Below, one piece after another: positions 13,572-43,170 of a stretch of 64,000 nucleotides of DNA (positions are counted from its first letter, which is position 1; each line of letters opens with the position of its first letter). The position numbers and the translations under genes were made by a program. The notes under the pieces are model-generated. The model ran no database searches. It was not told the origin of the DNA and worked only from the letters and a program-made list of their open reading frames with translations. Origin of the DNA: a marine gamma proteobacterium HTCC2148 (GTDB lineage Bacteria > Pseudomonadota > Gammaproteobacteria > Pseudomonadales > Halieaceae). The stretch spans positions 268,017 through 332,016 of the forward strand of contig DS999224.1 in assembly GCA_000156295.1 (NCBI GenBank). Reading direction: 5' to 3'.

Positions 13572-16541
13572 TTATCGAAGTTCGATGCGGCGACGCGCGT
13601 TCAGGCCCAGGCCCAGTGCCCCCAGAATTATCAGTCCCAAAATCCATTGTGGTGTCACCGGAATATTTTGTATTTCAGTGTCGGGCGGATCAATGGGTGG
13701 AGGGTCAATAGGTGGTTCGGTAGGATCCACGAAGTAGCCGAAATTGGCATTCTGGTAGATTTGTCCTGAGGTGAGGCTAAAGGCGTTAGGGTTGGTGCCG
13801 CCGGTCAGCATCTTGTCAGTTAATACAGCATATTCGTCGGTAACCTCGATTCGCCAGTTGCCCGTCGGCACAGGAACAAACACGTAATAGCCATTGCTAT
13901 TGGTAACAGCGGTGGCGGTTCTTTTTTCATAGCTGCCGTTGTTGTCCTCATCCAGCTGGAGTTCAACCGTCACATTGCCGATGCCTGGTTCCGAGCTTTC
14001 TCGCTGGCCATTGCCGTTCTCATCGTCCCACACCAGATAGCCGCTTGCCCCGAAGTTGATTGGCACAAAGTCCACACTAAACGATGACTTAGAATCTACC
14101 ACGTTGTTTTCATCATCGACTGCGGTGGCGGTCACAATATTGGTGTGAACGCTGCCAGGAGAACCAGTAATTATTTGCGTGAACTGACAGGCGACTGACG
14201 ACCTGGCAGATATAGCCACAGGTAGGGCGCAATTGCCCTGGCCGTTCAGGTCACCGAAACGGTCGTCGTCAAGACCGGTTAGGGTGACATTCACGTAGCT
14301 CGAGTTGCGAGTGGTGATGGTGTAGATCACCTCGCCGCTGGACCCTAATAAAGCTCTGCGATTGCCAATCTTCACCACCTCGATGGCCGCAGCTGCGTAA
14401 CCGAAGTCTGCGTCGTTGAAGATCTCACCTGTCTCCAGATTGACGTCCAACGGCTCGGCACCTCCTGTCAGAATAAATCCATCAAGGGCGCCTGTTGTAT
14501 CGCTGACAACTACCTGATAGTTGCCAGCGGCAAGTGCCGTGAAGTCATATTTGCCAGAAGCGTCAGTGCTGGTGGTGGCCAAACGCGTACCGGCTTGGTA
14601 AAGGTCCACCGTTACGTTTTTTATACCGGGTTCTCCTGCATCAAAAACGCCGTCTGCATTGAGGTCTTCCCATACCTGATCGCCAATAGCGGCGCTAGAG
14701 GGCGCTAAAAACAGCACGGCGGCGGGGCCGGAGTCGAAAGTGATGTTGTTATTAGCATCGGTTGCTCTAGCGGAAACGGTGTTGCGGTGGATTTCCAGGG
14801 GCTCGCCCGAAATGGTTTCTGTAAAGCGGCACTTGTAAGTCTGCCTTTTGGTGATGCTGACACCCAATTCGCAGGTCCCCAAACCATTGAGGTCACCGAA
14901 GCGACTGTCGATCAACTGATCAAGGGTCACCGCGGTGTCGCCAATATTTAAAACAATAATGGAGTAAGTCACCTCTGCAGAGGGCGATTTAACAATAAAT
15001 TCGGATGGAATTTTTATGACCTGGATTGCTGGCTTGGGTATGTCCGCGTAGCCAAAATCGGCGCTGTCATAATATTCGCCGGGTGCAAGAATCAAATCCA
15101 GAGGTTCGGGCGGCGTCGTCAAAAAACGATCCTTCAAAATCTGGTTGGTGTCAGTGACGGTGACTCGGTAATTGCCGGCCGGCAGACCAATGAAACCGTA
15201 CTCGCCATTGTTAATGGTGGTATCCGTGGCAACCAGTGTTTCGTAATTGCCATCGCTGTCAGCGTCGTAGGAGAGGTCAATGGTTACCTGGTTTAACCCC
15301 ACCTCGCCTTCGTCTAAAACGCCATTGGCATTTTCGTCCAGCCACACAAGGTTACCCAGAGAACCATTGACAGGATCTTCAATGCCGACGACAGCATCAT
15401 CGGCGCCATAGATAAAGTAACCTTCAACGAGGTCTTTGGCAGCAGCCTGCACAGTGTTGGTATGGTTTTCGCCTGGGTTACCATCGATTTGGCGGTCGAA
15501 TTCGCAGCTGTAGATATCTCCCGGTGCCAATGGCGTAGCGGGGAGCGCGCAGTCTCCCTGGTCAATCAGGTCACCGAATTTGTCGTCTACTAGTTCGGTC
15601 AGTTCCCAGGCAATCACTCCCGAGTTCTGAACTTCCACCGTGTAAGTGACCAGCCCACCAGGAGCAAACACCACTTGGGGGCTTACCGCTTTGGAAACTG
15701 TCATTTCGGCGCGTACATAGCCGAAGTTCGCAAACGTATTGACTTGTCCGGGCTTAAGAACCACCTCCAGCGGATTATCGGCGGTGGTGCGTACCAAGTT
15801 GTCCAATGGTCCTGATGAATCTTCAACCGCCACCACGTTGTAAATACCCCCTCCCAGATCCGTGAAAGCATAGAATCCGGACTCGTTGGTCACAGCGATC
15901 GTGTGTGTTGGAATGCGCTCCTCGTAAAGCTCTATGGTGACGCCGGCGATACCCTCTTCATTTTCCTGTTTAATCCCGTCTGCATTCAAGTCGTTCCAAA
16001 CCAGGTAGCCGATCGCTCCCTTAGCAACTTCAATGAAATTGACTAGAGCTCGTCCCATATCGCTGACGGGCTTGCCGTCCCCAGTGCCGCTGGCGGTCAC
16101 AGTGTTCAGATGAACTCCGGGTGCCGTGCCGGAGGGAAAAGCATTGAAACTGCAAGTGTAGATCTCTCCCGAGGCAATTTCCTGCGGCATGCTACATGAG
16201 CCTGCTCCGTTCAAGTCGCCGAACTTGTCATCGACCAGCGTATCGATAAACACTGTGATCGGGCCTTCATTCACCACATTGATTGTATAGTCCACGTCTT
16301 CACCGGGGCTGATCACAAGAGGCTCAGCTGTTTTCTGGACGCGTATTACTGGGATTTCAGGGTTGGGCGGTACAACGGGCACTTCTCCTATATCCCCAAT
16401 GGTATCAATGCACTTGCTGCTCGTTGAAAGGCTGAAATTCGCTGGATCGCTGGCATCGTCGCAGGCACTTGAGTTCTGCTTCCAGGTAATTGCGTAGGCA
16501 ACATCCAGAGTGCCATCGTTATTGAGGTCCTGGCACAGCAC
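13572..16541 (-). CDS. Large secreted repeat protein (alternating DUF11-like and SdrD_B-like domains) with IPTL-like sorting tail
   Basis: The open part codes 989 aa and carries four copies of a two-domain unit. Each unit has a DUF11-like beta domain (marks: DDKFGDLNGAGSC or close variants, then NTVTA) followed by an SdrD_B/Cna_B-like domain (VWNDLNADG..., E-x-GI-x-VT, and NFGY at the end). The Asp/Asn-rich loops look like calcium sites. The C terminus has a Pro/Asp linker (DPPPIDPPD), then IPVTPQWILGLIILGALGLG and NARRR: a motif-helix-Arg tail like IPTL-CTERM signals processed by exosortase-type enzymes; no such sortase is in the window. The true 5' end lies further upstream (16541-16985) but is frameshifted; GTG at 16541 is only the first usable codon after a stop. 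Likely a cell-surface or matrix protein. Confidence 0.75.
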   Translation of the reverse strand: MLCQDLNNDGTLDVAYAITWKQNSSACDDASDPANFSLSTSSKCIDTIGDIGEVPVVPPNPEIPVIRVQKTAEPLVISPGEDVDYTINVVNEGPITVFIDTLVDDKFGDLNGAGSCSMPQEIASGEIYTCSFNAFPSGTAPGVHLNTVTASGTGDGKPVSDMGRALVNFIEVAKGAIGYLVWNDLNADGIKQENEEGIAGVTIELYEERIPTHTIAVTNESGFYAFTDLGGGIYNVVAVEDSSGPLDNLVRTTADNPLEVVLKPGQVNTFANFGYVRAEMTVSKAVSPQVVFAPGGLVTYTVEVQNSGVIAWELTELVDDKFGDLIDQGDCALPATPLAPGDIYSCEFDRQIDGNPGENHTNTVQAAAKDLVEGYFIYGADDAVVGIEDPVNGSLGNLVWLDENANGVLDEGEVGLNQVTIDLSYDADSDGNYETLVATDTTINNGEYGFIGLPAGNYRVTVTDTNQILKDRFLTTPPEPLDLILAPGEYYDSADFGYADIPKPAIQVIKIPSEFIVKSPSAEVTYSIIVLNIGDTAVTLDQLIDSRFGDLNGLGTCELGVSITKRQTYKCRFTETISGEPLEIHRNTVSARATDANNNITFDSGPAAVLFLAPSSAAIGDQVWEDLNADGVFDAGEPGIKNVTVDLYQAGTRLATTSTDASGKYDFTALAAGNYQVVVSDTTGALDGFILTGGAEPLDVNLETGEIFNDADFGYAAAAIEVVKIGNRRALLGSSGEVIYTITTRNSSYVNVTLTGLDDDRFGDLNGQGNCALPVAISARSSVACQFTQIITGSPGSVHTNIVTATAVDDENNVVDSKSSFSVDFVPINFGASGYLVWDDENGNGQRESSEPGIGNVTVELQLDEDNNGSYEKRTATAVTNSNGYYVFVPVPTGNWRIEVTDEYAVLTDKMLTGGTNPNAFSLTSGQIYQNANFGYFVDPTEPPIDPPPIDPPDTEIQNIPVTPQWILGLIILGALGLGLNARRRIELR

Positions 16542-17231: not shown

Positions 17232-18059
17232 GTGCGCATAATTAATCAATGGCAAAATCCCGACGGTTCTACCTGGCTGGTCATCCGCAAATCGGCCGAA
17301 GGTTTTGAGCTGGAGTTTCCGCATTTAGCTCAGTTTAGCCTGGACGACGAGGGTGATGTTATCTGCAAAACTCAGCTTGAGGACGGTTGTGAGGCCACCC
17401 TGGATCATCTTTATCTCAATCAGGTATTACCGCTTGCTCTCAGTTTGCAAAACGAGCTGGTGCTGCATGCCAGTGCGGTTAATATTAATGGCCAGGCCGC
17501 GGTTTTTTGTGGCAGTTCGGGTATGGGGAAATCTAGTATAGCCGCGGCCTTTGCTACCGCCGGGTATCCGTTTTTGACAGATGATGGTTTGCTGATAGAG
17601 CCTAGTGGCGGGGATTACCTCGCCGTACCGAGCCACCCGTTTATTCGCTTGTGGGACGACTCGCGTGACTCTTTGGTGCCCGGAGAAGTTGGGAGCTTGC
17701 CTACACCGGTATGGACCGAAAAATCTCGCTTACTGGCGGGTGAGCAGTTACCGTTTTGTGATCAAAAAGTGACTGTTGGGCGCGTTTATTTTCTGCAAGA
17801 TGAAGGGGTTGATAGCTTGACGATTTCCCCCCTACTGGGTGCTGATGCCCTGATGGCGTTGGTGCGAAATTCGTTTTTTCTCGATATCTCCGATCGTTGC
17901 GGCGTCAGTAAGCATTTCCATGGAGCTGGTGACCTGGTGCGCAAGCCATTATTTTATCATCTCGATTACCCACGGGCCTATGGCGAACTGCCGTGCCTGG
18001 TGGATGGGGTTTTAGAACACATGGAAATGCCTGGCTTCGCATCCGTTGAGGGTTCATGA
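17232..18059 (+). CDS. HPr-kinase-like P-loop protein of the lasso-peptide locus
   Basis: 275 aa from GTG 17232. The C-terminal HprK kinase fold is seen in LHASAV (79-84), the P-loop GSSGMGKSS (94-102) and LTDDG (115-119); the N-terminal 70 residues are a short unknown domain rather than the HprK sensor. Known background: HprK-like kinases occur in a class of lasso loci (the paeninodin type) where the kinase phosphorylates the peptide's C-terminal Ser, and in the uncharacterised HprK-related/PqqD gene sets of proteobacteria. Here the predicted core ends in Lys, so a C-terminal Ser target is absent; Ser2 of the core is the only hydroxyl residue. It overlaps the next gene by four bases (ATGA), so the two are coupled. 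Confidence 0.8.
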   Translation: MRIINQWQNPDGSTWLVIRKSAEGFELEFPHLAQFSLDDEGDVICKTQLEDGCEATLDHLYLNQVLPLALSLQNELVLHASAVNINGQAAVFCGSSGMGKSSIAAAFATAGYPFLTDDGLLIEPSGGDYLAVPSHPFIRLWDDSRDSLVPGEVGSLPTPVWTEKSRLLAGEQLPFCDQKVTVGRVYFLQDEGVDSLTISPLLGADALMALVRNSFFLDISDRCGVSKHFHGAGDLVRKPLFYHLDYPRAYGELPCLVDGVLEHMEMPGFASVEGS

Positions 18060-18574
18060 CTGTCCACGGTAATAAGGCGAGTGCAGCCTCCAGTTTGTGC
18101 CAGAGCTGTGGCCTTTGCTGTACCGGGTTTGCTTGCGAGGTTGTAATCGTCAAACCGGAAGGTGATGAGGCCTATGCCGATAGGTTTGCTAATGGCCTGG
18201 TGCTGGCGTCGGATGGCCAGCACCGCTTTCTCGAATTGCCCTGTCCGGCGTTCGACGGCAACTGCACGATGTATGAGCAGCGCCCCAGCGACTGCCGTAG
18301 CTATCAATGTGACTTGCTGGAGCAGGTGCTTGGCGGTGCGCTTTCCAGGGATAAAGCTGATCAGGTGATTAGCGAGGTACAAGGTCGCTTGCGCGAACTG
18401 GCGACTGAATACAACGCCGGTCGCTCCGACCCACTCTCTGAGCAGGAAACCTATGCTGCCTTGCAGTCAGACCATTTGTGCGCCCGCGAGAAGGGCCTGG
18501 AACAGCGATTTTGGCAGCAAAACCCGAAATATCTGGGGTTGGTCTTTTTGCGTGAAAAGTACTTTGTCGCCTGA
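18056..18574 (+). CDS. YkgJ-family cysteine-cluster protein
   Basis: 172 aa. Cysteines at 15, 18, 21, 22 and 27 (CQSCGLCC ... C) and at 63, 70, 80 and 85 (CPAFDGNC ... RPSDCRSYQC) match the YkgJ/CxxCxxCC family, thought to bind zinc or iron-sulphur. No enzyme function is established for the family. The start overlaps the stop of the kinase-like gene (ATGA), which ties its role to that protein. It is not a usual member of lasso clusters and may be a metal-dependent maturation partner; that is inference. Confidence 0.8.
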   Translation: MTVHGNKASAASSLCQSCGLCCTGFACEVVIVKPEGDEAYADRFANGLVLASDGQHRFLELPCPAFDGNCTMYEQRPSDCRSYQCDLLEQVLGGALSRDKADQVISEVQGRLRELATEYNAGRSDPLSEQETYAALQSDHLCAREKGLEQRFWQQNPKYLGLVFLREKYFVA

Positions 18575-18597
18575 GCTTGCCACCTGGGTTATGGTAA

Positions 18598-20211
18598 ATG
18601 CTCCTAGTCTGCTCTCTTTGGATTAACCACTTGGATCACCCTATCGTCAAACCGAGCTATCCATCGCCTGAGCCATCGCCAGGTATATCTGCGTGCCATA
18701 GAGAGGCACAGGAACTGCTGGCGATTGCCGATACTCTCACTGTTGTGAACACAAAGCTGGCTGCCAGCCTCGCGACTTGGCGAGAAGCAATGATGACAGT
18801 GTTACATGAAAGTCAGGAGAGCCTTTCTACCGAGCGCACACTGGAGGGGCTTGCTCTGGAGTTGCGTCACCGCTGGATAGAACTGGCACAGTCAGTGGTG
18901 AACCGGGATCTCAAGTCCCCTCCGGATGATTACCTGCCTCTGCTGCCCATCAGCGGCGGCGCCTACTATATCTACGAGCGCGTAAAAGGCGCTGTCCCGC
19001 TTGAGCAGCGACTCAACACTGGTGCCCCGGCAGCTGGCGATTGGCAGAGCAGCCACGTACTGTTTACCAATGGCATGGCCGCCATAGCCGCGGTGCTGAC
19101 ATGCCTGCGACAGTGGCGGGAAAAGCTGTTGCCAGAAGCGGGTCGGGCCCATAGGCTGGATGCCTGCATTGGTTATTTTGAAAGCTTCAAGTTGTTGCGG
19201 TTAATGAATTCTACAGAACTTCCCTGCACTAACTATCGTGATTCCGAGGAAGTGCTGGCTTTGCTGGCCAGTGGTGCCACAGACATGCTGTTTTTGGAGC
19301 TCATAGCCTATGATTGGGTGCAGAGCGTTATTGATCCGGCCAAAATTCTGGCGGCGTTAGAGTCGCGTCCGTCAGATCGCCCCTGGGTGCTGGTGGTGGA
19401 TTCCACTTTGCTTGGCGCTGCCTTTGATATGATGGCGTTGCTGGCCGCTATGGGAGACAGAAGCCCGGTGATGGCGGTAGAAGTGCGCTCGGGTTTGAAG
19501 CTGGATCAGGTAGGCTTAGAGTTCGCTAATGTAGGCCTTGTAAAGGTCTTTGGTTGCACACACGCAGACAGTGAACAGAGCACAATAGCGAGTGAATTTG
19601 TGCAGGCCCTGGCATCGGCCCGCAAGGTGTTGGGTACTGGTCTAAGCATACAACAGAGCGCGGTGCTGGACGCGCCCTGGGTTTTTCACCCTCAGTTGAC
19701 AGCAGCACATACCCAACGGATATTCGACCATAATCGTCGCTTAGCTCGGGCAATGTCTGGTATACCAGGTATGTTCGCACAAGTGCATCATCCGGCACTG
19801 GGAGAGCAGTCGCAACTGGCCTGGGCAGAATCTCCAATAGTGGTAATGACCTTTCACCCGGGCGAGGACACGGAAGAGAATCACAAATTATTATTAGCCG
19901 TTATTGCTCATGAGGTCCGCCAGCGGGGACTGGTGTTTCACCGGGGCTGCAGTTTTGGCTTCCGCCACCATCGCTGCGAAATTGTAGTGCCCGAATCTGG
20001 TTACATTCATCAGGGCGGTGGCCCCCGTGGTTTCCTCAAAGTTGCTATGGGCGTGCGCGAGGGTCCCTCATTGGAGGGGGTGATTCAGCTGCTGCAGGCG
20101 CTGGCACAGTTTGCAGATTTTGATGCCCTGCGCACTGCATATCCAGATCTGAGCTCCAAGCGTGCACTCGCAGCGCTGCCCGACTTGCAGTCCCTGCGGA
20201 CGACTCGGTAA
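18598..20211 (+). CDS. PLP-dependent enzyme, fold type I (cystathionine gamma-synthase-like), unknown substrate
   Basis: 537 aa. The first ~150 residues are helical and unrecognised. From about residue 155 it resembles Cys/Met-metabolism PLP enzymes: VLFTNGMAAIAAVLTCL (phosphate-binding turn, cf. SSGMAA), VLVVDSTLLGAAFD (Asp binding the pyridine N), and EVRSGLKLDQVG, where K301 occupies the Schiff-base place of the family's S-x-T-K motif. The match is distant and the substrate cannot be told. The start (ATG 18598) is uncertain; an ATG at 18591 is out of frame. It lies between the YkgJ gene and a PLP decarboxylase, four bases before the latter's proposed start, so the two PLP enzymes are probably one pathway. 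Confidence 0.65.
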   Translation: MLLVCSLWINHLDHPIVKPSYPSPEPSPGISACHREAQELLAIADTLTVVNTKLAASLATWREAMMTVLHESQESLSTERTLEGLALELRHRWIELAQSVVNRDLKSPPDDYLPLLPISGGAYYIYERVKGAVPLEQRLNTGAPAAGDWQSSHVLFTNGMAAIAAVLTCLRQWREKLLPEAGRAHRLDACIGYFESFKLLRLMNSTELPCTNYRDSEEVLALLASGATDMLFLELIAYDWVQSVIDPAKILAALESRPSDRPWVLVVDSTLLGAAFDMMALLAAMGDRSPVMAVEVRSGLKLDQVGLEFANVGLVKVFGCTHADSEQSTIASEFVQALASARKVLGTGLSIQQSAVLDAPWVFHPQLTAAHTQRIFDHNRRLARAMSGIPGMFAQVHHPALGEQSQLAWAESPIVVMTFHPGEDTEENHKLLLAVIAHEVRQRGLVFHRGCSFGFRHHRCEIVVPESGYIHQGGGPRGFLKVAMGVREGPSLEGVIQLLQALAQFADFDALRTAYPDLSSKRALAALPDLQSLRTTR

Positions 20212-20215
20212 GCCT

Positions 20216-21442
20216 GTGCTAATAGAAGTAAAACCCTCGTCTGACTACAAAGCGGGACTGGCTCAGCTGACCGATCAGCTGAAGGGGCGCGGGCCTGCGA
20301 TAGATGTTGCGCCTGCGCTGCTTAGTTGGCTAAAGGGCAGGGAGCTCTCTACTCCAGCGCTGGTATTCGACCTGGATACGATCACCGCCCGCATGCAGGC
20401 TTTGGCGCAAACCGCAGCAAATCAAAATATCGCATGCTTGCTGGCAGTTAAGAGTTGCCCGCGGGAACCACTATTGAAGACAGCGCAGCAACATCTGGCG
20501 GGTTTTGATGTGTCTAATCTGGCTGAATACCGGGCTTTGCCTGCTGATCTGAGTGGCAAAACAGTTTCCCTCACATCACCCCAATTGACCAAGGACTATT
20601 ACCTTTTTGCCGCTCGCGGTAACCGGCTGGTGGTAACCGTGGACAGTATCGCCCAGTGCGTCAACTACTTGCAGCAGGGTGCGCCCTTTCCCTACGTATT
20701 GCGTATTCAAGGCGGCCAGTTGTTGCCAACGTCAGACGCCGCATACACGAACTGCAGTCGTTTTGGTTTTACCGCACCGATGCTGGAACAACTGCTGCAG
20801 CGACCAGACGTGCAAGCGCAGCCCCCCTGTGGCTGGCATGTGCACCACGGCAGCGAAATTAATAGCGCGGCAACCTACCAATTCCTGATGGCGGGGCTTG
20901 CAAAACTTGGTGCGCAACTGCCTGAACCGCCAGCAATCATTAACCTGGGCGGAGGTTGGCATTCGGTTGAGAAACAGCAGCTCAATGATTTGTTTGCCTT
21001 GGCTCGAAAAGTGTTCCCAGAGCCCTGCTCGGTTTTTATTGAGCCCGGCCAATGGTTTGGCAAGGGCGCTGGATTGGCGGTCGGGGAAGTTGTCAACAAA
21101 AGCGGGGACGATGACAATCTTGGTTGTGTGCTGAATCTCTCGATGGACTGTCACTTGCGCTGGTCGTCTCCCAGGTTGTTAGTGCCCGTGCAGTTGCCTG
21201 CGCTTAAATTCGCCAAAGTTTATCTGGGCGGTGCCTCCTGTTATGAGGCCGATAGCCTGGGTTGCTTCATGCTGCCCTATCGGCAGGATCTCGCGCATGA
21301 CACATCGCTGGGTCTGGGCTGTCGGGTGCTGCTGAGCAATATCAGTTTGTATTCGCTGGCCTGGAACCAGGGCTTTAATGGTATTGCGCCAGCCACGGAG
21401 TATTGGTTGCGCAATGGTCTGGCGCTGGAGCCAACTGCATGA
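20216..21442 (+). CDS. PLP-dependent decarboxylase, fold type III (LysA/NspC-like)
   Basis: 408 aa from GTG 20216, placed four bases after the preceding stop; the frame is open further upstream but overlaps that gene. The TIM-barrel half has STPALVFDLDTI and LAVKSCPREPLL with Schiff-base Lys79; then SNLAEYRAL, GWHVHHGSEI, the phosphate loop INLGGGWH, EPGQWFGKGAG and GGASCYEADSLG (the C-x-E/D motif of the dimer-interface active site). Relatives decarboxylate diaminopimelate, ornithine/arginine or carboxynorspermidine; which amino acid is used here is unknown. Its stop overlaps the cyclase start (ATGA), so it is translationally linked to lasso synthesis. Confidence 0.82.
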   Translation: MLIEVKPSSDYKAGLAQLTDQLKGRGPAIDVAPALLSWLKGRELSTPALVFDLDTITARMQALAQTAANQNIACLLAVKSCPREPLLKTAQQHLAGFDVSNLAEYRALPADLSGKTVSLTSPQLTKDYYLFAARGNRLVVTVDSIAQCVNYLQQGAPFPYVLRIQGGQLLPTSDAAYTNCSRFGFTAPMLEQLLQRPDVQAQPPCGWHVHHGSEINSAATYQFLMAGLAKLGAQLPEPPAIINLGGGWHSVEKQQLNDLFALARKVFPEPCSVFIEPGQWFGKGAGLAVGEVVNKSGDDDNLGCVLNLSMDCHLRWSSPRLLVPVQLPALKFAKVYLGGASCYEADSLGCFMLPYRQDLAHDTSLGLGCRVLLSNISLYSLAWNQGFNGIAPATEYWLRNGLALEPTA

Positions 21443-23367
21443 GCGGCATTGTCGGCCTGGTGCGTTACGATCAGCAGGGGGTGACTCGCAACCAGATAGA
21501 GTCGCTATTACAACAGATGGCCTACCGTGGCCCCGACGGAATGCATTGCTGGGTCGATGGGCAGGTGGGCTTCGGTCACGCCATGCTGCACACAACGCCT
21601 GAGTCACTGCATGAGGTGCAGCCCTTGCATGTGCCTGAACGTAATCTGACGTTGGTGATGGATGGTCGCCTGGACAATGGTCTGGAACTGCGCGGCCGGA
21701 TATTGTCTCTGGGTATGTCGGTGCCCCGCTTAACCGATGCCGACCTGGTCTTGGCGGCCTACCTGGTCTGGGGTGAAGCCTGTGTTGACCATCTTGAAGG
21801 TGACTTTGCTCTGGTTCTTTGGGACTCGAGCAGTCAGCGATTATTTTGCGCGCGCGACCGTATCGGCCACCGGCCGTTTTATTACTACCACAGTGATGGC
21901 TTATTCGCTTTTGCCTCAGAGCTGCACTTGCTGTTGACGTTGCCGGAAGTCAGCCGTCGACCTGATACGGTGTATCGCACGGAACACTTGGCCACCGAGT
22001 GGCATTCGCGCGAGCGCACTCTGTGGGCAGACATCAAGCGCCTACCGGCGGCCCATATCTTATCGCTACGGGGTTGTGAGCTGGAAAAAAAGGAATACTG
22101 GCAGCCGGATTTCAATGCGCAATTATATTACCCTAGTTACGAGGATTACGTTGAGCACTACCGTGAGGTGCATGACACCACAGTGCAGCGTATGTCTCGC
22201 AGTCACAAGCCACTGGCCTGCACCGTCAGCGGTGGGCTGGATTCCTCTGCAATATTTGCGACCAGTAAGTGGCTTGAGGGGCAGGGTAGGCTGCGCGCTC
22301 CGGGCGTGCAGGCCTATACCCTAGATTTCAGTCACGACGAAGACGCCAACGAACTTGCCTACGCTCGCGCGGTGACTGATTATCTGGGCTGTGAACTGAA
22401 TGCGGTGCTCCCCAGCGATTACCCCCTGGACTGGTATCTGCAGCGTGCCGAACACAGGGCTGAGGCCTATTGTATTCCCACTAGCACCATGTCCAACAAG
22501 CTGCGTCAGCAAGTGGCTTCCGGCGGCAACCGGGCGCTGATCGGGGGTTTGGGGGGAGATCAATGGTTAGGTTTTGGTGAGAACTGTTACATGGAGCTAC
22601 TGGCAAACAGACAATGGCGCTCGCTGCATTCAATATGGCGTGAAGATGCAAAGGCCCGGGGGGCCGCTCGGGCCGGTTATTACATCGCCAGATATGGATT
22701 AGCGCCGCTTCTTCCTCGCGTGATAAAGCGCCCGCTGCAGCGCTGGCGCGATAATAGGGAACATCTGGCCACAGGAAGGCATTGGCTGGGTCCCGGTGGA
22801 GCTGATAGTTTGGAAAGGGGCGCTCAAATGGCGTGGCGCAAGCCCCGCAACGGGTTCCGCTGGGCAGGCCAACAAGCAGACTGGTCGCGGTTGCTGAATG
22901 GTCGGGTTGCCAATGGGTTGGAAATGACGCAGCAGTTTACCGCCGAGGCGGGCTTGGAGTTGAGAAGCCCCTATTGGTCCGAGGCGATGATACAGCTTTC
23001 CATTAGCCTGCCCAAGCATTTGCTCTATGGCCAGTTACTGGATCGGCCTCTACATCGTCGCGCTATGGTGGGTAGATTGCCCGAGCGGGTTCTGCAGCGT
23101 GACAGTAAAGCCGAGTTTAGCGTAACGTATACTGGCATCATGGCCCAAGCAACCGCACTGGTGTCTGCTTCTATGACGCAAAGCGTCGCGCTGGGTTTGC
23201 AGGAGCCCTATATCCATAAGGCTGTTGAGGCGGAACACGCTGAACCAATAGGTGACGAGTGCGATGGTTTATGGGAGTTATGCAATGTATTGGCAGCGAC
23301 TCAAAGTCTGCCCCCACGAGGGGATAGTGATACCGACCCTCACAGCGTAGACTATGCGTCACGTTAG
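21439..23367 (+). CDS. Lasso peptide isopeptide bond-forming cyclase (asparagine synthetase-like)
   Basis: 642 aa from ATG 21439, overlapping the previous stop by four bases. The N-terminal glutaminase-like domain begins MSGIVGLVRYDQQG: the Cys2 needed for glutamine hydrolysis in AsnB is Ser, as expected of a cyclase that does not use ammonia. The C-terminal synthetase domain has the ATP pyrophosphatase loop TVSGGLDSSA near residue 263 and GGLGGDQWLGFG. In this family the enzyme adenylates the Asp/Glu side chain of the core and joins it to the N-terminal amine, closing the ring. The precursor gene starts 12 bases downstream. A free amidotransferase role is unlikely without Cys2; compare the AsnB-type enzyme at 40.1 kb, which keeps it. 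Confidence 0.85.
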   Translation: MSGIVGLVRYDQQGVTRNQIESLLQQMAYRGPDGMHCWVDGQVGFGHAMLHTTPESLHEVQPLHVPERNLTLVMDGRLDNGLELRGRILSLGMSVPRLTDADLVLAAYLVWGEACVDHLEGDFALVLWDSSSQRLFCARDRIGHRPFYYYHSDGLFAFASELHLLLTLPEVSRRPDTVYRTEHLATEWHSRERTLWADIKRLPAAHILSLRGCELEKKEYWQPDFNAQLYYPSYEDYVEHYREVHDTTVQRMSRSHKPLACTVSGGLDSSAIFATSKWLEGQGRLRAPGVQAYTLDFSHDEDANELAYARAVTDYLGCELNAVLPSDYPLDWYLQRAEHRAEAYCIPTSTMSNKLRQQVASGGNRALIGGLGGDQWLGFGENCYMELLANRQWRSLHSIWREDAKARGAARAGYYIARYGLAPLLPRVIKRPLQRWRDNREHLATGRHWLGPGGADSLERGAQMAWRKPRNGFRWAGQQADWSRLLNGRVANGLEMTQQFTAEAGLELRSPYWSEAMIQLSISLPKHLLYGQLLDRPLHRRAMVGRLPERVLQRDSKAEFSVTYTGIMAQATALVSASMTQSVALGLQEPYIHKAVEAEHAEPIGDECDGLWELCNVLAATQSLPPRGDSDTDPHSVDYASR

Positions 23368-23379
23368 CAAGAATTAACC

Positions 23380-23565
23380 ATGTCGGGAGAGCAGTCAGTG
23401 AGCAGAAGAGAGGAAAATCCCCAGATATCGATTTCAGCGGGGTCTGGCCGTAAATACAAGACGCCGCGATTGGAGCGGTTTGGTGAGATCTCTCATGTCA
23501 CACAGGGCTCATTTGGTAAGAAAAAAGACGCCGAAGGCGACGAAGTGGCAATTATTCCAAAATGA
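23380..23565 (+). CDS. Lasso peptide precursor
   Basis: 61 aa. The leader shows the recognition motif Y-x2-P-x-L-x3-G as YKTPRLERFG at residues 26-35, and Thr41 sits two residues before the cut, as lasso proteases require. The predicted core is G43-K61 (19 aa), GSFGKKKDAEGDEVAIIPK. Asp50 is core position 8, so an 8-residue Gly1-Asp8 ring is predicted (Glu10 would be too far). The ring would carry three Lys in a row, the tail is acidic then hydrophobic (VAIIP). There is no bulky aromatic in the tail to act as a plug; Ile or Pro would have to. Placed directly after the cyclase. Ribosome site is weak (AAGAA). Confidence 0.85.
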   Translation: MSGEQSVSRREENPQISISAGSGRKYKTPRLERFGEISHVTQGSFGKKKDAEGDEVAIIPK

Positions 23566-23619
23566 GATAAAACCTAATACTTTTTACCCTATTTTTTGGG
23601 CGAGGTGATGAGGCGAAGG

Positions 23620-25290
23620 CTATGTGGCGCTAGCTTGAAGCGTTGGCGCCAGCTCCCCGTCTTCCAAACGTAAGATCCTGTCCGCCAGTGCAAGACTGGC
23701 TGGCCTGTGGGTAATTAATACCACTGTACGTTGCCTGATCAGGTCATGACATTCACTGATAAAACTCGCCTCTCCTTCCGGGTCGAACATGGATGTGGCC
23801 TCATCCAGTATCAGGATAGGCGGATCTTTCAAGAGTGTGCGAGCCAGTGACAGCCGCTGGCGCTGGCCGCCCGACAGTTTGATCCCTTCATCGCCGATAA
23901 TTGTTTCGTACTGCTGTGGCAGTGCTTCAATGAAGTCCGCTGCGTGTGCAGCGTGGGCCGCTTTACGAATGTCCTCCTGTGAAGCGCCCGGCCGGCTGTA
24001 GGCAATGTTATCGGCAATGGTGCCGTTGAGCAGAAGCACGTGCTGAGCCACCAACCCCACCTGCGCCCTGACACTGCTTAGCTCCGCTGTGCTGATATCG
24101 TGGCCATCGATCAGGATGCGGCCCGCAGATGCTGGGATAAGACGCATAAGTAGATGCGCGATGGTGCTTTTACCAGCGCCGTTCTCACCGGTTATAGCCA
24201 CCGTCTCGCCGGCGTCTATTATCAGGTTCAGGTGCTCGAAGAGGGGCTTCCGTTCGGGGTAGGCATATTTGACGCCGGTAAACACGATACTGCCTTTGAC
24301 CGGTGGCAGGGGAGTCCCGCCGTCATTTAAAGGTTCTGGTTGCTCACTGAACAATTCCAACAGGCGCTCCGCCGCGCCCCTGGCCTGTTGCAGGCGGCCA
24401 TAAACATCCGCCAGGCTGCGCAGTGGTGCAATCAGCAGGTTGGCATATAACAGCAGACTGACCAACTCAGCTGGGTCTAGCAGTCCCTGTTCTATGTGGC
24501 GGCTGCCCAGCCACAGCATGGTGAGCACCCCGACGCCCGCCAGCAGGTCCACCGCCGGCGACAGCAAAGTCTGTAACTTCAGTTGTCGCTGCCAGGTGCG
24601 TTCCAGTTGTTGGTTTTCTTGGCGGAAGGCCTCTCTTTCCAGACGCTCCCTGGAAAAAGACTTGATAGCCGCTAGCAGCGAGAGGTTTTCTTCGGCGCGA
24701 GAAATCAGCTCGCTGTATTGATCAACCCAGGTCCGCGACAGGGGACGCATTTTGCGGCCGATAATTTTCAGCAGCAGGACGTAAAGCGGCATGCCGCATG
24801 TCACCAGTATAGCGATGCTAGGGTCCAGGCTGGCCATCATCACAAAAGCGCCCAGCAGGGTCAGAGACGTTGGTAGTAGTGGCAACACAGTGCCGGTGAC
24901 GAAGTCGCTGATCATGTCTGTATCGTTGCTCAGCAGGGTGAGTACCTGACCGCGCCTGCGCGCCTGATGCCAAGGTAGTGGCAGCAGCTGCATATGTTCA
25001 TACACCCGGTTGCGCAACTCGGTGGCCATGCGCTCCCCTACCAGACCCAAGTAGTAGCCGTTGGCGAGCTCAAGCAAGCTGCGGGCAGCAAATAAGGCCC
25101 CCCAGGCTAAAATAATGAGCGCGGTGCTATACCCTGACGTATTTGCTTCCCCTAGCAGTTTGCGAGTGAGTTCCCCGGCAACCAGCGGATTGATAAGGGA
25201 AATGCAGGTACCACCCAGCATCAGCACAGCGCATATCAGCAGCGGTACTTTTGGTGGGGTGATATAGCTCAGTAGTGTGCGGAAATTCAT
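23620..25290 (-). CDS. ABC transporter, fused membrane and ATPase domains (probable lasso peptide exporter)
   Basis: 556 aa. Six membrane helices in an ABC type-1 exporter domain (about 15-300), then an ATPase domain with Walker A ITGENGAGKST near residue 366, Q-loop, signature LSGGQRQRLS, Walker B ILILDEATS and the switch His in LITHRP. It belongs to the MsbA/LmrA-like half-exporters and would act as a homodimer. It faces the precursor gene tail to tail with 54 bases between, and lies between precursor and B2 protease, as lasso D genes do. Export of the mature peptide, and so self-protection, is the likely task. Confidence 0.82.
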   Translation of the reverse strand: MNFRTLLSYITPPKVPLLICAVLMLGGTCISLINPLVAGELTRKLLGEANTSGYSTALIILAWGALFAARSLLELANGYYLGLVGERMATELRNRVYEHMQLLPLPWHQARRRGQVLTLLSNDTDMISDFVTGTVLPLLPTSLTLLGAFVMMASLDPSIAILVTCGMPLYVLLLKIIGRKMRPLSRTWVDQYSELISRAEENLSLLAAIKSFSRERLEREAFRQENQQLERTWQRQLKLQTLLSPAVDLLAGVGVLTMLWLGSRHIEQGLLDPAELVSLLLYANLLIAPLRSLADVYGRLQQARGAAERLLELFSEQPEPLNDGGTPLPPVKGSIVFTGVKYAYPERKPLFEHLNLIIDAGETVAITGENGAGKSTIAHLLMRLIPASAGRILIDGHDISTAELSSVRAQVGLVAQHVLLLNGTIADNIAYSRPGASQEDIRKAAHAAHAADFIEALPQQYETIIGDEGIKLSGGQRQRLSLARTLLKDPPILILDEATSMFDPEGEASFISECHDLIRQRTVVLITHRPASLALADRILRLEDGELAPTLQASAT

Positions 25291-25707
25291 TGTTTTGCAT
25301 GTGTGCCGTTAAGCATGCCAGCCTACACAATTGTGGTGGAGTTAGGCTACTCTTGTGCTCAACCAGTTCCTGAAGTACAACATCAGTATAACGGCAGCGA
25401 TGCATCCAACCCACTCGTTAGATAGGCGAAGTGCTAAGTTTGCCCCGTCGCTGTGGATTCGCTACCTAAAGTCCTAACCCATTCGGTAGTGCCCTGTTCA
25501 ATTCTTGTGGCGTAGATCGAAAATCGCTATAGTTTTTGAGAAGCGCAGCGCAACGGATGTTAGGCTTTCAGCCAAGGAAAATCAGGTTTGAAGATTTAGT
25601 CCCCACAAGGCGCAGTTCAATGTATGACGAAAATTACACATCGGAAAATAACCCTGAAGTCGAGAACGTGTCTATCCGCAACCCGCAACTCTGCTCCTGA
25701 ATAGCAT
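25291..25707. other. 417-base divergent intergenic region of the lasso locus
   Basis: Lies between the exporter (leftward) and the B2 protease (rightward). No coding frame with sensible composition is seen. It holds one promoter candidate for the B2 gene (25505-25533) and presumably the exporter promoter; no operator palindrome was recognised. Confidence 0.5.
25505..25533 (+). promoter_or_regulatory. Candidate sigma-70 promoter for the B2 protease gene
   Basis: TTGTGG, a 17-base spacer and TATAGT. The -10 matches at five of six places, the -35 at three. It lies 175 bases before the GTG start. Confidence 0.4.
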
Positions 25708-26187
25708 GTGTCCATACCTCTAAGTCAATTTTTTTCTCTCCCTGCACGACATAAATTACTGCTGCTTAAGGCTTGGTTTTTGTTGGGTTTTTTCCGTGCC
25801 GCTGTGCTTTGCTTTCCCTTAAAGCGTTTAACTTTGCCTTTGCAGCACCATGCTCAAGCGCAACCTAGTGCTCCGCTCTGCGAGAATCAACAAAGGGAGG
25901 CTGTCGCTATTGGGCGTTTGGTTGCAGGCGCTGCACGCGTCACTCCGTGGCAGAGTCTCTGCCTTACCCAGGTGTTGGTCGTCCAGCGATTACTGTTGAA
26001 AAAGAATATCCCCGGTCAAATCTATCTTGGTGTGCGCAAGGGCGACCAGCAAGTAGCGTGCCCCGGAACTGCTGCTACAGGTCTTTATGCCCATGCCTGG
26101 CTGCAATCAGGAGACCAAATAGTTAACGGTGGAGGAGGCGCAGAGCAGTTTGCGGTTGTCTCTGTGTATAGTTGGGAAGCGCTTTGA
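25708..26187 (+). CDS. Lasso peptide leader protease B2 (transglutaminase-like)
   Basis: 159 aa from GTG 25708. After a hydrophobic N-terminal stretch (LLLLKAWFLLGFFRAAVLC) comes the B2 core (PF13471-like): VTPWQSLCLTQVLVVQRLL with the nucleophile Cys85, IPGQIYLGVRKG, and AHAWLQSGDQIVNGG with His129; Asp136 may complete the triad. The enzyme removes the leader after the residue following Thr(-2). There is no fused B1/RRE part, so a separate leader-binding protein is needed; the only candidate in the window is the PqqD-like protein at 56.8 kb. It is the last gene of the lasso locus before the polysaccharide genes. Confidence 0.85.
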   Translation: MSIPLSQFFSLPARHKLLLLKAWFLLGFFRAAVLCFPLKRLTLPLQHHAQAQPSAPLCENQQREAVAIGRLVAGAARVTPWQSLCLTQVLVVQRLLLKKNIPGQIYLGVRKGDQQVACPGTAATGLYAHAWLQSGDQIVNGGGGAEQFAVVSVYSWEAL

Positions 26188-28488: not shown

Positions 28489-29688
28489 ATGAAGTACGGT
28501 AGATTTTTTTGCCACATAATTCGGGTCGGAGCTTTAGCAACATGCGCACCACTGTTTGCGCTGGAGCCTGCCAACCTCAACTGGGGCTCAGTTTATGTGA
28601 CCCCTACCTTGGATACGCGGGTTGAATACGTCGACAACTTGTTTCGTACCCCCGACAACGCAAAAGAAACCGGCTTGACTGTCATAGAGCCAGAGGTACA
28701 GGCCTGGCTGCAAAACGGGCTTAACACTTATTCCATTGCTTATAAACTCACTGACTGGCGCTATTTTGACAGTAGTGATGACGACTTCATCGATCACCAG
28801 TTCAATATTGACGTTCATCATGAGTTCAATGCTAAAAACGTCTGGAACATCTACGGTGAGTATATAGATGCTCACGAAGAGCGCGGTACTGGATTGTCTG
28901 AGGGCGTTGCAAGCCTCATAGACGAGCCTGTTGAATTCCAGCGAGATACCCTGGGTACGGACTATACGCTCGGCAATGATGGGTCTAAGGGTCGAGTGCT
29001 ACTCGATGCGCAGTATCTAGATAAAGAGTACCAAAACTTTCAAGATCTTACGCAATATCGAAATCACACGACGAACCAACTAGCAGGAACTTTTTTTTGG
29101 AAAGTGACCGGCAAGACAGATGTTTTAGCTGAGGTGAAGTATCAGGAGGCGCGCTATGAAGAGGTTGATCCTCTGGGTCTTGGCGGGAGCTATGACAGTG
29201 ATGAATATAATTATTTCTTGGGCATAACTTGGGACTCCAGTGCGAAAACCGCTGGCAGCATCAAACTGGGCAATTTTGAGAGGACATACAAGTCACAAAA
29301 GCGCCAAGACGACGATGGGTTTTCGTGGGAGGTTGATGTGTATTATAAACCTCGTACCTATTCGGTTTTTCATCTGGCGTCCAAGCGCCTCAGTCAAGAA
29401 ACTACTGGCATTGGTGATTCAATAAATACTCAGAAATCGCGCTTAAATTGGGACCACGACTGGAACAGTCGCTCGAGCACACAGCTTTCCGTACTGCTTC
29501 AAAACGAGGATTACTCAGGCTCGGAGCGTGAAGACGATCTGCGCGGAGTAGAAGCTGTGTTCAAGTACTCGCTGCGTCGTTGGGCGGATTTGAGTGCGGG
29601 TTACCGCTACGAAGAGCGTGACTCAGATTTCGATTTATATGATTACGACCGTAGCACGGTCTTCGTGGAAGCGAAGTTCAGCTTGTAA
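28489..29688 (+). CDS. Outer-membrane beta-barrel protein of the polysaccharide locus
   Basis: 399 aa with signal peptide (cleavage near CAPLFALEP) and alternating amphipathic strands through to a C-terminal aromatic-rich strand ending in Leu after Phe (VFVEAKFSL), the usual barrel ending. It resembles BBP2/DUF2320-type barrels found with Wzx/Wzy exopolysaccharide genes, thought to help pass polymer through the outer membrane. The export protein at 30.2 kb is short and lacks an outer-membrane helix, which makes a separate barrel plausible. Confidence 0.75.
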   Translation: MKYGRFFCHIIRVGALATCAPLFALEPANLNWGSVYVTPTLDTRVEYVDNLFRTPDNAKETGLTVIEPEVQAWLQNGLNTYSIAYKLTDWRYFDSSDDDFIDHQFNIDVHHEFNAKNVWNIYGEYIDAHEERGTGLSEGVASLIDEPVEFQRDTLGTDYTLGNDGSKGRVLLDAQYLDKEYQNFQDLTQYRNHTTNQLAGTFFWKVTGKTDVLAEVKYQEARYEEVDPLGLGGSYDSDEYNYFLGITWDSSAKTAGSIKLGNFERTYKSQKRQDDDGFSWEVDVYYKPRTYSVFHLASKRLSQETTGIGDSINTQKSRLNWDHDWNSRSSTQLSVLLQNEDYSGSEREDDLRGVEAVFKYSLRRWADLSAGYRYEERDSDFDLYDYDRSTVFVEAKFSL

Positions 29689-29698
29689 TGAGTAACCT

Positions 29699-30163
29699 GT
29701 GATTCGTAGCGCGAGGCTGTTTTTTGCATCGCCGGTGCTGATAATGGTTGCACTTCTGGGTTTGGAGGGCGCACGCACCGTCTGCGACGACCTGGTTTTT
29801 ACCACAGCGGCTACTCAACTCTCTTTCTGGGGTAGAGAAAGCTACCAGCCAACTGTTCAAACGATTGATCTCACCGGACAGCAGCTGGAATCGTTACTAC
29901 AACGTTCGCCCTCGAAGCCCAATTATCTCGCTGAGCAAGCTTATTTTCTGTCTTGGAAGGGGTATGCTTCGGACGACGTTGCGCAGCGCCTTGCCTATAA
30001 TAAAAGCGCGGCTTCGACTCAATTACAAGCTTTAGCGCAACGTCCCGCCTACCGACAGGGCTGGGCAGAAATGATAGAGTATTCATCTCGAATGAGCGGA
30101 GGTGGCGAGATGCTGGAACAGGCACAGGCTCGTTTCGTCGCTCTGCAACCCGCCGCTAACTGA
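29699..30163 (+). CDS. VpsP-like polysaccharide biosynthesis protein, hypothetical
   Basis: 154 aa from GTG 29699, ten bases after the barrel gene. One N-terminal membrane anchor (FFASPVLIMVALLGLEGA), then a helical periplasmic domain (QQLESLLQRSPSKPNYL, YNKSAASTQLQALAQRPAY). Size, topology and place next to the SLBB export and Wzc-like genes recall VpsP of the Vibrio vps locus; sequence identity cannot be checked here. Function of that family is unknown. Confidence 0.55.
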   Translation: MIRSARLFFASPVLIMVALLGLEGARTVCDDLVFTTAATQLSFWGRESYQPTVQTIDLTGQQLESLLQRSPSKPNYLAEQAYFLSWKGYASDDVAQRLAYNKSAASTQLQALAQRPAYRQGWAEMIEYSSRMSGGGEMLEQAQARFVALQPAAN

Positions 30164-30177
30164 GGCTGACAGCTCTC

Positions 30178-30717
30178 GTGATCAAACGGATTGGATACAT
30201 ACTGGCGTTGCTAAGCACCCTAATGGCAGGTGGCTTTGTACAGGGGCAGGATGCCGCCGGCTATACGCTCAATGCGGGTGACTCCATTCGAATCTATGTT
30301 TACGGTGAGCCTGATCTCACCTTTGGGAATCTGCTAATTGGCCAAAATGGTCGTATTTCTTATCCTTTTTTGGGTGAGTTCAAAGTCACTGGTAAAACTT
30401 CAGGACAATTACAGCAGTTGTTGGTGGACGGTTTAAAGCCGGATTATCTGATAGATCCCCGTGTTTCCGTTAGCGTAACGCGCTATCGCCCGTTTTTTAT
30501 CAATGGCGAGGTAAATCGCCCGGGAGGGGTGGATTTTCAGCCCGGCTTGACACTGCGTAAGGCAATTTCGCTGGCGGGGGGGTTCACCGAGCGCGCTAAC
30601 AAGAAGCGCATTCTTGTGATAGCTGATAAAGACCCGAACCGCGAAGAGCAAGAGGTGGGGCTGGATTACCGGGTGCAGCCCGGAGACATAATCACCGTGC
30701 AGGACACCTTTTTTTAG
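30178..30717 (+). CDS. Polysaccharide export protein (Poly_export + SLBB, short Wza type)
   Basis: 179 aa from GTG 30178. Signal peptide, then Poly_export domain (YTLNAGDSIRIYVYGEPDLT ... DPRVSVSVTRYRPFFINGEV) and one SLBB domain (RPGGVDFQPGLTLRKAISLAGGF). No Cys lipobox in the right place and no C-terminal amphipathic helix for the outer-membrane pore of Wza, so it is a short VpsN-like form that probably works with the barrel protein. The stop TAG is directly followed by the ATG of the Wzc-like gene. Confidence 0.88.
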   Translation: MIKRIGYILALLSTLMAGGFVQGQDAAGYTLNAGDSIRIYVYGEPDLTFGNLLIGQNGRISYPFLGEFKVTGKTSGQLQQLLVDGLKPDYLIDPRVSVSVTRYRPFFINGEVNRPGGVDFQPGLTLRKAISLAGGFTERANKKRILVIADKDPNREEQEVGLDYRVQPGDIITVQDTFF

Positions 30718-32958: not shown

Positions 32959-33021
32959 GCTGGTCTTTTTCGAGAATGAGGCGGGCCGTCATTCCAGCAA
33001 CCGGTTAGGTGGTCCCATAAC

Positions 33022-33795
33022 GTGATCGACCTTCACGCCCACTTACTTCCTGGTGTAGATGATGGCCCAGACACCTTAGAGCAGTCCCTGGAGCTCTGTC
33101 GCCTGGCTGCTTCCTCCGGCACCACGCACGCCATCTGCACTCCTCACATTCATCCCGGCCGCTGGGAAAACACTCGCAAATCTATTCAGGTAAAATTCGC
33201 CAAATTGCAACGAGCAGTAGCCCAACAGTGCATCCCGCTGCATCTTGGCTTCGCCGCTGAGGTACGCTTAACCGACGAAATTATTACCCAGATCACAAAC
33301 AACCAAATCCCTTTCTACGGTGAAGTGGACGGCTATGAAATAATGCTGCTGGAATTCCCCCACAGCCATATCATCCCCGGCAGCGATAAACTGGTGCAGT
33401 GGTTGATGAATAGGAAAATACGACCACTAATCGCTCACCCCGAACGCAACAAGCAGGTAATGAAAGATCCGGCGCTGTTGCAACCCTTTATTGATGCGGA
33501 TTGCTGGCTGCAGGTAACTGCCGGTTCGATTATTGGCGCATTTGGCGACGGCGCTCAGACTATCGCCCGACAGTTACTTGATGATGATGCGATAACTGTT
33601 ATCGCGAGCGATGGCCACAATGAAAAGGCTCGCCCTCCGGTACTTAAGGAGGCTTTTACTCATACCAGTGAAGTTTATGGCGTGGAGCGCGCACACCGCC
33701 TGATGCAGAGCACTCCCGCCAGTATCATTTCCAGCCAGTTTCATGGGCAGTCGCTTGCGCCCTTGACGCCGTTCGACTCAGTAGTTTTTGAGTAG
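33022..33795 (+). CDS. PHP-domain tyrosine-protein phosphatase (CpsB/YwqE type)
   Basis: 257 aa from GTG 33022. DLHAHLLPGVDDG (residues 3-15), CTPHIHPG, LIAHPERN and SDGHN supply the metal ligands of the PHP fold. Enzymes of this type dephosphorylate the Tyr cluster of the cognate Wzc/CpsD kinase and are most common in Firmicutes; Gram-negative loci more often have low-molecular-weight phosphatases. Placement directly after the kinase supports the pairing. Confidence 0.88.
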   Translation: MIDLHAHLLPGVDDGPDTLEQSLELCRLAASSGTTHAICTPHIHPGRWENTRKSIQVKFAKLQRAVAQQCIPLHLGFAAEVRLTDEIITQITNNQIPFYGEVDGYEIMLLEFPHSHIIPGSDKLVQWLMNRKIRPLIAHPERNKQVMKDPALLQPFIDADCWLQVTAGSIIGAFGDGAQTIARQLLDDDAITVIASDGHNEKARPPVLKEAFTHTSEVYGVERAHRLMQSTPASIISSQFHGQSLAPLTPFDSVVFE

Positions 33796-33801
33796 TTTGA
33801 G

Positions 33802-35148: not shown

Positions 35149-35752
35149 CACGTTCTCGTGAATGGATGATGAAAAAGCATTTGATCCTTTTCACGCGTAA
35201 GCTTGGCTCAGTATTAACACGGTCTAAAAAGAAATGGAATTCCGCTTCTATACGTTTAGGTGCCACTTTAAATGCAAGTATAAAAATTCAAGGTACGTAT
35301 AATTTTGGAAAAGGCGTGGAGCTTCGAGCGACTGATGGCGGAATTATTCAGCTTGGGAAGAGGGTGTCCATCGGAAGGAATTCGGTACTAATTGCCCAAG
35401 GGGGGAGATTGTGATCGGTGATGATTGTTATATCGGTGATGGTTCCTTCATAGTGGCGAAAGAGGCTGTCAGCGTTGGTTCCGGAACGTTAATTGCGGAA
35501 TATGTTGTCATTCGTGATCAGGACCACTCCATAGATAGTTTGCCAATTCGCTTGGCTGGTTTTGAAACGGCGCCGATTGAAATAGGTGATGGCGTATGGG
35601 TGGGCTGTAAAGCTACTATTTTGCGTGGTGTCAGAGTGGGCGACGGTGCTGTTATTGGCGCCCATGCGCTTGTTAGGTCAAATATCCCGGACGGAATGTT
35701 GGCGGTGGGGCTGCCTGCCAAGGCAGTTCGATGTTTGAGAAATACCGCATAA
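35145..35752 (+). pseudogene. Left-handed beta-helix O-acetyltransferase (WbbJ-like) split by a frameshift in a G6 run
   Basis: From ATG 35145 the frame reads 88 residues of the N-terminal half (helix, then hexapeptide repeats to VSIGRNSVLIAQGG) and stops at 35414; the second half (IGDDCYIGDGSFI ... EIGDGVWVGCKATILRG, IGAHALVRSNIPDGMLAVGLPA) goes on in another frame to 35752. One more G in the run at 35400-35405 would join them as QGGEIVIGDD with a perfect repeat pattern. The product would then be 202 aa, normal for sugar or serine acetyltransferase-like enzymes of polysaccharide loci. Either a true loss, a slippage (phase-variable) tract, or a base-calling error. Confidence 0.8.
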
Positions 35753-35818
35753 ATTGTCTAGTAGATAGGATGTTTTGATATCGTTTTTTCTGCCTGTGAG
35801 ATTTGATATTTTTCCCAG

Positions 35819-36958: not shown

Positions 36959-37031
36959 CTGCCGTACAGCAATCCTTTTTAGATAAACTGGAAGGGCACG
37001 AATTTAACGATAGATTATTTGGTGATTCAGA

Positions 37032-37628: not shown

Positions 37629-37775
37629 GTATTCAATACAGTAAAAATGCGCGTGCTTTTTTCCTTTCAAGAAATAGAGAAGCGCGTTGCCCTTTTTCTG
37701 AAAGCTCCAGCACAAATGTGCATGGGTAATGGCATGCAAAAACTCAGCAAATTTTCGAACGAAGGTTGATCGCCC

Positions 37776-38975: not shown

Positions 38976-39027
38976 AGTCTGTATCCTTAGAACCGAGAAT
39001 CAATTCAAAGGTTTTGACAAAAAATCA

Positions 39028-40125: not shown

Positions 40126-40128
40126 AAT

Positions 40129-42075: not shown

Positions 42076-42085
42076 GTAGTTCGAT

Positions 42086-43141: not shown

Positions 43142-43170
43142 AAGGGCAAGTTTATGCCTCTGGCTATCGC

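Follow-up and report, generated by a model that had tools for sequence, protein, structure and literature searches.

A YkgJ protein and two PLP enzymes in the lasso peptide operon of gammaproteobacterium HTCC2148: a possible portable amine-adding cassette

What do two enzymes dependent on pyridoxal phosphate (PLP) do inside a lasso peptide operon? The question is raised by a stretch of 64,000 nucleotides from the marine gammaproteobacterium HTCC2148 (Halieaceae; assembly GCA_000156295.1, contig DS999224.1, positions 268,017 to 332,016; hereafter the window). There, a plus-strand gene run (17232-23565) encodes, in this order, an HprK-like kinase, a YkgJ protein, a PLP enzyme resembling cystathionine gamma-synthase (CGS), a PLP decarboxylase, a lasso cyclase and a lasso precursor; the exporter gene lies on the strand opposite to the operon and the gene of the B2 leader peptidase lies downstream of the exporter gene (Table 1). 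A preliminary description of this DNA had listed a precursor, an AsnB-like cyclase lacking Cys2, B2, an ABC exporter, the kinase, YkgJ and the two PLP genes, all of which are present.

A cassette between kinase and cyclase

The genes for YkgJ, the CGS-like enzyme and the decarboxylase form a three-gene cassette placed between kinase and cyclase, with frames open throughout. Both outer joints (kinase/YkgJ and decarboxylase/cyclase) are ATGA overlaps, and four nucleotides separate the two PLP genes. The preliminary description was right on these junctions and wrong in extending such close spacing to YkgJ and the CGS-like gene, which are 23 nt apart; cyclase and precursor are separated by 12 nt. 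In three relatives (L056, L057 and L062) nothing separates kinase and cyclase, whose frames overlap according to mechanical coordinates of open reading frames. We read this as a portable and possibly amine-adding cassette inserted into the lasso operon, which the PLP pair probably serves.

The locus itself is almost certainly a lasso peptide operon of a known kind. Family models back the cyclase, B2, the leader, the exporter and the N-domain of the decarboxylase, several scores being below curated cut-offs. For the cyclase (P0005) the best NCBIfam model is the lasso cyclase NF033535, at 375.8 bits (curated cut-off 525, missed; asparagine synthase 234), and Ser stands at residue 2 in place of the glutaminase Cys2. 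B2 (P0008) matches NF033537 at 73.4 bits (cut-off 33), and the kinase (P0001) reaches 46.8 bits against HprK_rel_A, far below the cut-off of 200. Kinase-bearing lasso clusters of the paeninodin and SyanK type, as a section of PMC9266682 presents them, are alike in precursor leader, B2, Cys2-less cyclase, ABC exporter and the His-Lys-Asp-Asp residues of the kinase. Unlike them, the locus studied here has its PqqD/B1 candidate 30 kb off, a core ending in Lys instead of Ser and three extra operon genes. No B1 (PqqD/RRE) gene is seen at the lasso locus. A search of the genome with PF05402 at E 0.001 returned a single match, the PqqD-family protein of Table 1, about 30 kb from the operon. Its best NCBIfam match is lasso_PqqD_Bac (57.9 bits, below the cut-off of 80), and it resembles small frames in lasso-type loci of relatives (L066, near B2, 8e-31; L063, 4e-23; L056, 2e-9); judged by this resemblance, it may be the lasso B1 acting in trans.

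The precursor (P0006) carries a leader of the form YKTPRLERFG...T-Q-G, read directly as a YxxPxLxxxG-type motif with Thr at position -2. Two leader models align to it in the correct register, below their cut-offs (NF033521, 16.8 bits against 19; NF033528, 16.3 against 33). Placing Thr41 at -2 gives the core GSFGKKKDAEGDEVAIIPK, in which Gly1 to Asp8 (GSFGKKKD) make up the predicted eight-residue ring; Asp8 fits the acidic residue expected at ring positions 7-9. Known lasso kinases modify a C-terminal Ser, according to the part of PMC9266682 dealing with them. Here the core ends in IIPK, and Ser, the target of kinases of the paeninodin type, is not at the C-terminus. The cores of three genus-mates, whose cyclases are 40-41% identical to P0005, start with GSGGTMGD (L054), GSGGSKGD (L025) and GSGGSLGD (L053). 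Ring positions 5-7 are thus KKK here versus TMG, SKG and SLG, that is, three lysines versus none, one and none.

Table 1. Position of the genes of the lasso locus, of the PqqD-family gene (window coordinates) and of the GGSRPR frames found at other loci
Feature	Position	Strand	Remarks
HprK-like P-loop kinase P0001, 275 aa	17232..18059	+	His, GKS Lys and Asp-Asp residues retained
YkgJ / CxxCxxCC protein P0002 (PF03692), 172 aa	18056..18574	+	ATGA overlap with kinase gene
CGS-fold (fold type I, predicted) PLP enzyme P0003, 537 aa	18598..20211	+	predicted PLP lysine K301 in SGLKLDQ
Alanine-racemase-fold (fold type III) PLP decarboxylase P0004, 408 aa	20216..21442	+	K79, H208/H210, GGG245-247, EPG276-278, C342, D346
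AsnB-like lasso cyclase P0005	21439..23367	+	Ser replacing Cys2; ATGA overlap with decarboxylase gene
Lasso precursor P0006, 61 aa	23380..23565	+	core GSFGKKKDAEGDEVAIIPK from codon at 23506; predicted ring Gly1-Asp8, Lys5-7
ABC exporter, 556 aa	23620..25290	-	
Lasso B2 leader peptidase P0008, transglutaminase-like, 159 aa	25708..26187	+	
PqqD-family protein, 93 aa	56758..57039	-	possibly lasso B1/RRE in trans
GGSRPR frames	L070:5907-6382, L071:6025-6376, L021:4407-4490, L072:8238-8456		upstream of decarboxylase, arginase, CGS and ABC genes

The cassette in relatives and in other bacteria

Within the family, lasso genes and cassette part company. Searched with P0003 at E 0.001, the 140 family genomes, of which 78 have a completeness of 90% or more, gave a match in the window's own genome alone, while B2 was matched in 13 of the 140, including the window's genome and five of the seven other genomes of the genus. 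Homologues of the CGS-like enzyme or the decarboxylase were found at E 1e-3 in none of the 15 stretches that surround B2 or cyclase matches and come from 13 other genomes of the family, five of these stretches (L025, L062, L064, L065 and L066) being contigs shorter than 7 kb. Stretch L059 yielded no lasso gene, though a B2 match had earlier been placed in that genome region. One of the 15 has a YkgJ gene without the PLP pair, between the precursor and the exporter of a lasso-type locus (L060:6006-6695).

Some neighbours of these loci call for comment. In L063 (15291-17653) the kinase gene of a lasso-type locus is followed by a 425 aa protein lacking a Pfam match and a frame judged flavoprotein-like by eye. 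PurA adjoins the cyclase in the genus-mates L053 and L054; it was considered as a tailoring gene and set aside, for it is a full-length match to adenylosuccinate synthetase and most likely a housekeeping neighbour. A frame of 223 aa (L053:11180-11851), for which Pfam gave no match, was not counted as a gene.

Outside the family the CGS-like gene recurs (the genome samples overlap, and counts include the window's genome where sampled). P0003 matched two of 390 genomes of the order, the second (G453) by a weak, stop-containing fragment of 78 residues (E 2.8e-4) that was left out of the locus count. Profile A3 found 12 of 398 genomes in a phylum search at E 1e-20, and profile A8 two of 369 in the window's class at E 1e-15; the class of G609 gave 11 of 48, all already in the phylum search. 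A scan of genome contigs added at least five CGS loci and plasmids gave two records, whereas phages gave no match to P0003. We compared 18 other CGS loci, short or contig-end ones included (L068, L081, L088, L089, L093 and L094); L085 was counted and L069 left out, the two being taken as the same contig (both 80,850 bases). At E 1e-3 no match to lasso cyclase, B2, HprK or precursor came up in any of the 18, several of which are short contigs. Four of them have ABC matches, and the decarboxylase accompanies the CGS gene in ten (L021, L022, L070, L071, L072, L081, L090, L091, L092 and L157).

Since the pair is found without lasso genes, and the lasso loci of relatives without the pair, the pair is not lasso-specific. 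The preliminary description had named either finding as a sign that the link is chance; taken together they rule out a lasso-specific pair and do not reduce the link to chance. The same figures (none of 15 family stretches, none of 18 other CGS loci, one of 140 family genomes) favour the view that the cassette sits in the operon by chance or for co-expression, its product being unrelated to the lasso peptide. We nevertheless think this unlikely. The cassette interrupts a single operon, its outer joints are both ATGA overlaps and its frames are open, and it stands at a place where three relatives have directly overlapping genes; in other bacteria the pair is again found next to frames for short peptides. 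These facts argue against chance, as do the three ring lysines versus none, none and one in genus-mates and the YkgJ gene within the lasso-type locus L060.

YkgJ belongs with the PLP pair and is not a fixed part of the module. Four genomes have it as an N-terminal fusion to the decarboxylase: G609, G613 and G621, where the fusion adjoins CGS, and G663, where it is on a different contig from a partial CGS gene. On a Verrucomicrobia contig (L068) a YkgJ gene and a CGS gene, the latter 47-49% identical to P0003, face each other, and the contig ends there. The YkgJ profile matched six of 12 genomes (the window's and 11 with CGS) and none of the other six; no YkgJ match was seen in the stretches of the Bacillota, Curtobacterium and G1066 loci. 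The preliminary description had not recognised YkgJ as part of the module.

In the gammaproteobacterium G1066 (L157:9378-12926) a SET-domain gene (47.6 bits, cut-off 22.4) comes next after CGS, with the decarboxylase, 45% identical to P0004, on the other strand. SET proteins commonly methylate lysine. The cysteine cluster of the flagellin lysine methyltransferase FliB is likened by its authors, in a part of PMC8598068, to PF03692; the motif is CX4CX3CC in FliB and CX2CX2CC in YkgJ. A lysine acceptor would account for both the SET and the YkgJ partners. Genes for a TPR glycosyltransferase and a sulfotransferase also adjoin this CGS/SET/decarboxylase set.

Short peptides accompany the pair in four loci of three genera, Mammaliicoccus (L021), Shouchella (L070 and L071) and Curtobacterium (L072), which combine CGS, decarboxylase and arginase with short frames whose C-terminus is GGSRPR, followed by no more than three further residues (four copies in L070, at least three in L071). 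These frames likely represent an unnamed family of the type of ribosomally synthesized and post-translationally modified peptides (RiPPs). Arginases of the PF00491 type that work on a peptide have been described for enteropeptins (a section of PMC10028609); an arginase at the GGSRPR loci would yield ornithine, again an amine. An RRE domain in the arginase N-termini looked plausible by eye and is not claimed, as hhalign of two shallow alignments gave a probability of 0.35%.

Repeat proteins are found near the module in Magnetococcales-like genomes. There, RTX frames adjoin CGS-STK-FGE or STK-FGE genes (STK-FGE denoting a Ser/Thr kinase-FGE fusion, with or without CGS fused) in L089, L090, L091, L092 and L102. 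Most of the RTX-type neighbours carry Gly/Ser/Lys repeats; the GGSK counts in these five loci are 9, 1, 6, 14 and 0, respectively, L102 having GQSGKGE repeats instead. In a control, GGSK repeats also turned up in L150 and L153, from genomes lacking a CGS match, and not in L146 and L149.

Proposed chemistry and alternatives

Both PLP folds and their conserved active-site residues are supported, that of P0003 through a predicted model. P0002 matches PF03692 at 28.4 bits (cut-off 23). P0003 has no match to the Cys/Met family, PF01053 included, in NCBIfam or Pfam at E 0.1 and no PDB match by sequence at E 1; its CGS fold is visible solely in the predicted structure model, where fold and PLP-binding residues are present. 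Its homologues in L021 and L022 score 25.0 and 26.5 bits against PF01053 (cut-off 27). The decarboxylase P0004 matches PF02784 at 35.9 bits (cut-off 23.4), and its nearest PDB sequences are those of NspC, the carboxy(nor)spermidine decarboxylase.

Substrate and product of the pair are inferred, and that it acts on a peptide at all we deduce from gene order and context. The CGS-like enzyme would form a vinylglycine-ketimine from activated homoserine or S-adenosylmethionine (SAM) and transfer the 3-amino-3-carboxypropyl group to an amine; the decarboxylase would then remove the new alpha-carboxylate to leave an aminopropyl group. The acceptor would be the precursor peptide, modified while the leader is still attached and the ring still open, most likely on at least one of the lysines K5-K7. 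YkgJ may be an accessory metal or Fe-S protein and may act on the same lysines. The ABC transporter would then export a lasso peptide whose side chains resemble polyamines. We rate this chemistry, with the cassette working on the lasso precursor, at somewhat less than an even chance. In broader terms, no class of explanation does better than the earlier, unproven one, in which the pair produces an amine, attaches one or changes the peptide itself.

Related chemistry is known elsewhere. The natural substrate of NspC is an N-(3-amino-3-carboxypropyl) amine, and NspC and P0004 have their fold in common. In the loline pathway the step of the PLP decarboxylase LolD comes after that of LolC. LolC is CGS-like and believed to use the amine proline as gamma-nucleophile; it belongs to a small-molecule pathway, is uncharacterised in vitro and is grouped, as putative, with CGS, CndF, Fub7 and Mur24 as gamma-substituting enzymes (a portion of PMC10367076). 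Mur24 of the muraymycins is a PLP enzyme that transfers aminocarboxypropyl from SAM to an amine via vinylglycine, giving products with an aminopropyl linker (discussed in part of PMC10491745); it differs in resembling 1-aminocyclopropane-1-carboxylate synthases, not CGS, and in its acceptor, a nucleoside and not a peptide. For microcin C, a ribosomal peptide product, the same portion of PMC10491745 has the aminopropyl group come from the transferase MccD and the PLP decarboxylase domain of MccE; MccD is of the SAM-dependent methyltransferase type, its acceptor is a phosphate and the order of the two steps is described there as not fully settled. Long-chain polyamines can be conjugated to silaffin (an excerpt of PMC6356823), and the predicted product may be likened to it, an analogy of our own.

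Several observations weigh against this chemistry. P0004 scores 31.5 bits against the NspC model TIGR01047 (cut-off 409.05), and the polyamine-binding Asp of NspC is apparently missing from it; P0004, labelled LysA/NspC-like in the preliminary description, is not NspC-like in any specific sense. The decarboxylase was not seen in eight of the 18 CGS loci (L068, L085, L086, L087, L088, L089, L093 and L094); in L068, L088, L089, L093 and L094 the CGS gene is within about 2 kb of a contig end. In addition, Lys-repeat RTX proteins stand beside STK-FGE in L147, L148 and L151, whose genomes gave no match to CGS. Such proteins thus occur independently of CGS in Magnetococcales-like genomes, which weakens their case as substrates of the module.

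A rather unlikely alternative is that the product of the pair is itself a small free amine or an unusual amino acid (e.g. an aminopropylated polyamine or a homoserine-derived diamine), attached by another enzyme or co-exported with the lasso peptide. The solved relatives of P0004 that were listed act on small molecules (judged in part by the titles of the entries), a Magnetococcales CGS gene (L069/L085) is beside a condensation/adenylation/carrier/thioesterase gene, which would use a free monomer, and the Enterococcus plasmid locus has ThiF, MFS and GNAT genes. Against this, no ligase or transferase that could attach a monomer is recognised in the lasso operon, and the module is beside precursor-like short frames in four loci. 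The plasmid locus as a whole (L022:4303-12544) is microcin C-like in gene content, with genes for ThiF, CGS, MFS, decarboxylase, GNAT and a 538 aa protein lacking a Pfam match, preceded by a frame of 25 aa.

That the PLP enzymes alter the precursor otherwise, for example by lyase-type elimination or decarboxylation of one of its own residues, we consider improbable. The top structural neighbours of the P0003 model are beta- and gamma-lyases, as such an alteration would have it (absence of a family from the VIA-align lists rules out nothing). Against it, an amino acid must offer a free alpha-amine for PLP chemistry, and internal peptide residues have none; the partner decarboxylase suits a pathway in which a new amino acid end is added first.

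Surroundings and significance

Elsewhere in the window, genes resembling exopolysaccharide and PEP-CTERM/XrtA systems occupy 28489-44301; this exopolysaccharide-like region includes an AsnB-type amidotransferase (40129-42075) with an asparagine synthase match above cut-off. A large protein is encoded at 13572-16541 on the minus strand, its matches to SdrD/SdrC-type adhesins being far below cut-off.

As the preliminary description had supposed, a PLP pair for lasso tailoring may be new. A word search of two lasso reviews, PMC9266682 and PMC13352647 (2026), finds PLP, pyridoxal and decarboxyl- unmentioned. Among the matches listed from the open-access literature there is no description of the PLP pair, YkgJ or aminopropylation in lasso peptides, and no paper was found there on lasso peptides together with YkgJ.

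Taken across hosts, we tentatively propose, as a possibility still open to considerable doubt, that YkgJ (or a SET protein), the CGS-like enzyme and the alanine-racemase-fold decarboxylase make up an undescribed portable module that aminopropylates lysine or ornithine of ribosomal peptides: the lasso ring here, the arginase-linked GGSRPR peptides of Bacillota and Curtobacterium and perhaps the repeat proteins of Magnetococcales-like bacteria. Because the pair recurs beside unrelated short peptides, the idea can be tested in several hosts. If it is true, lasso peptides would gain a PLP-based class of tailoring, a CGS-fold enzyme would provide the donor step of a peptide modification resembling polyamine synthesis, and the same chemistry would have a second, independent family of RiPP type in the GGSRPR peptides.

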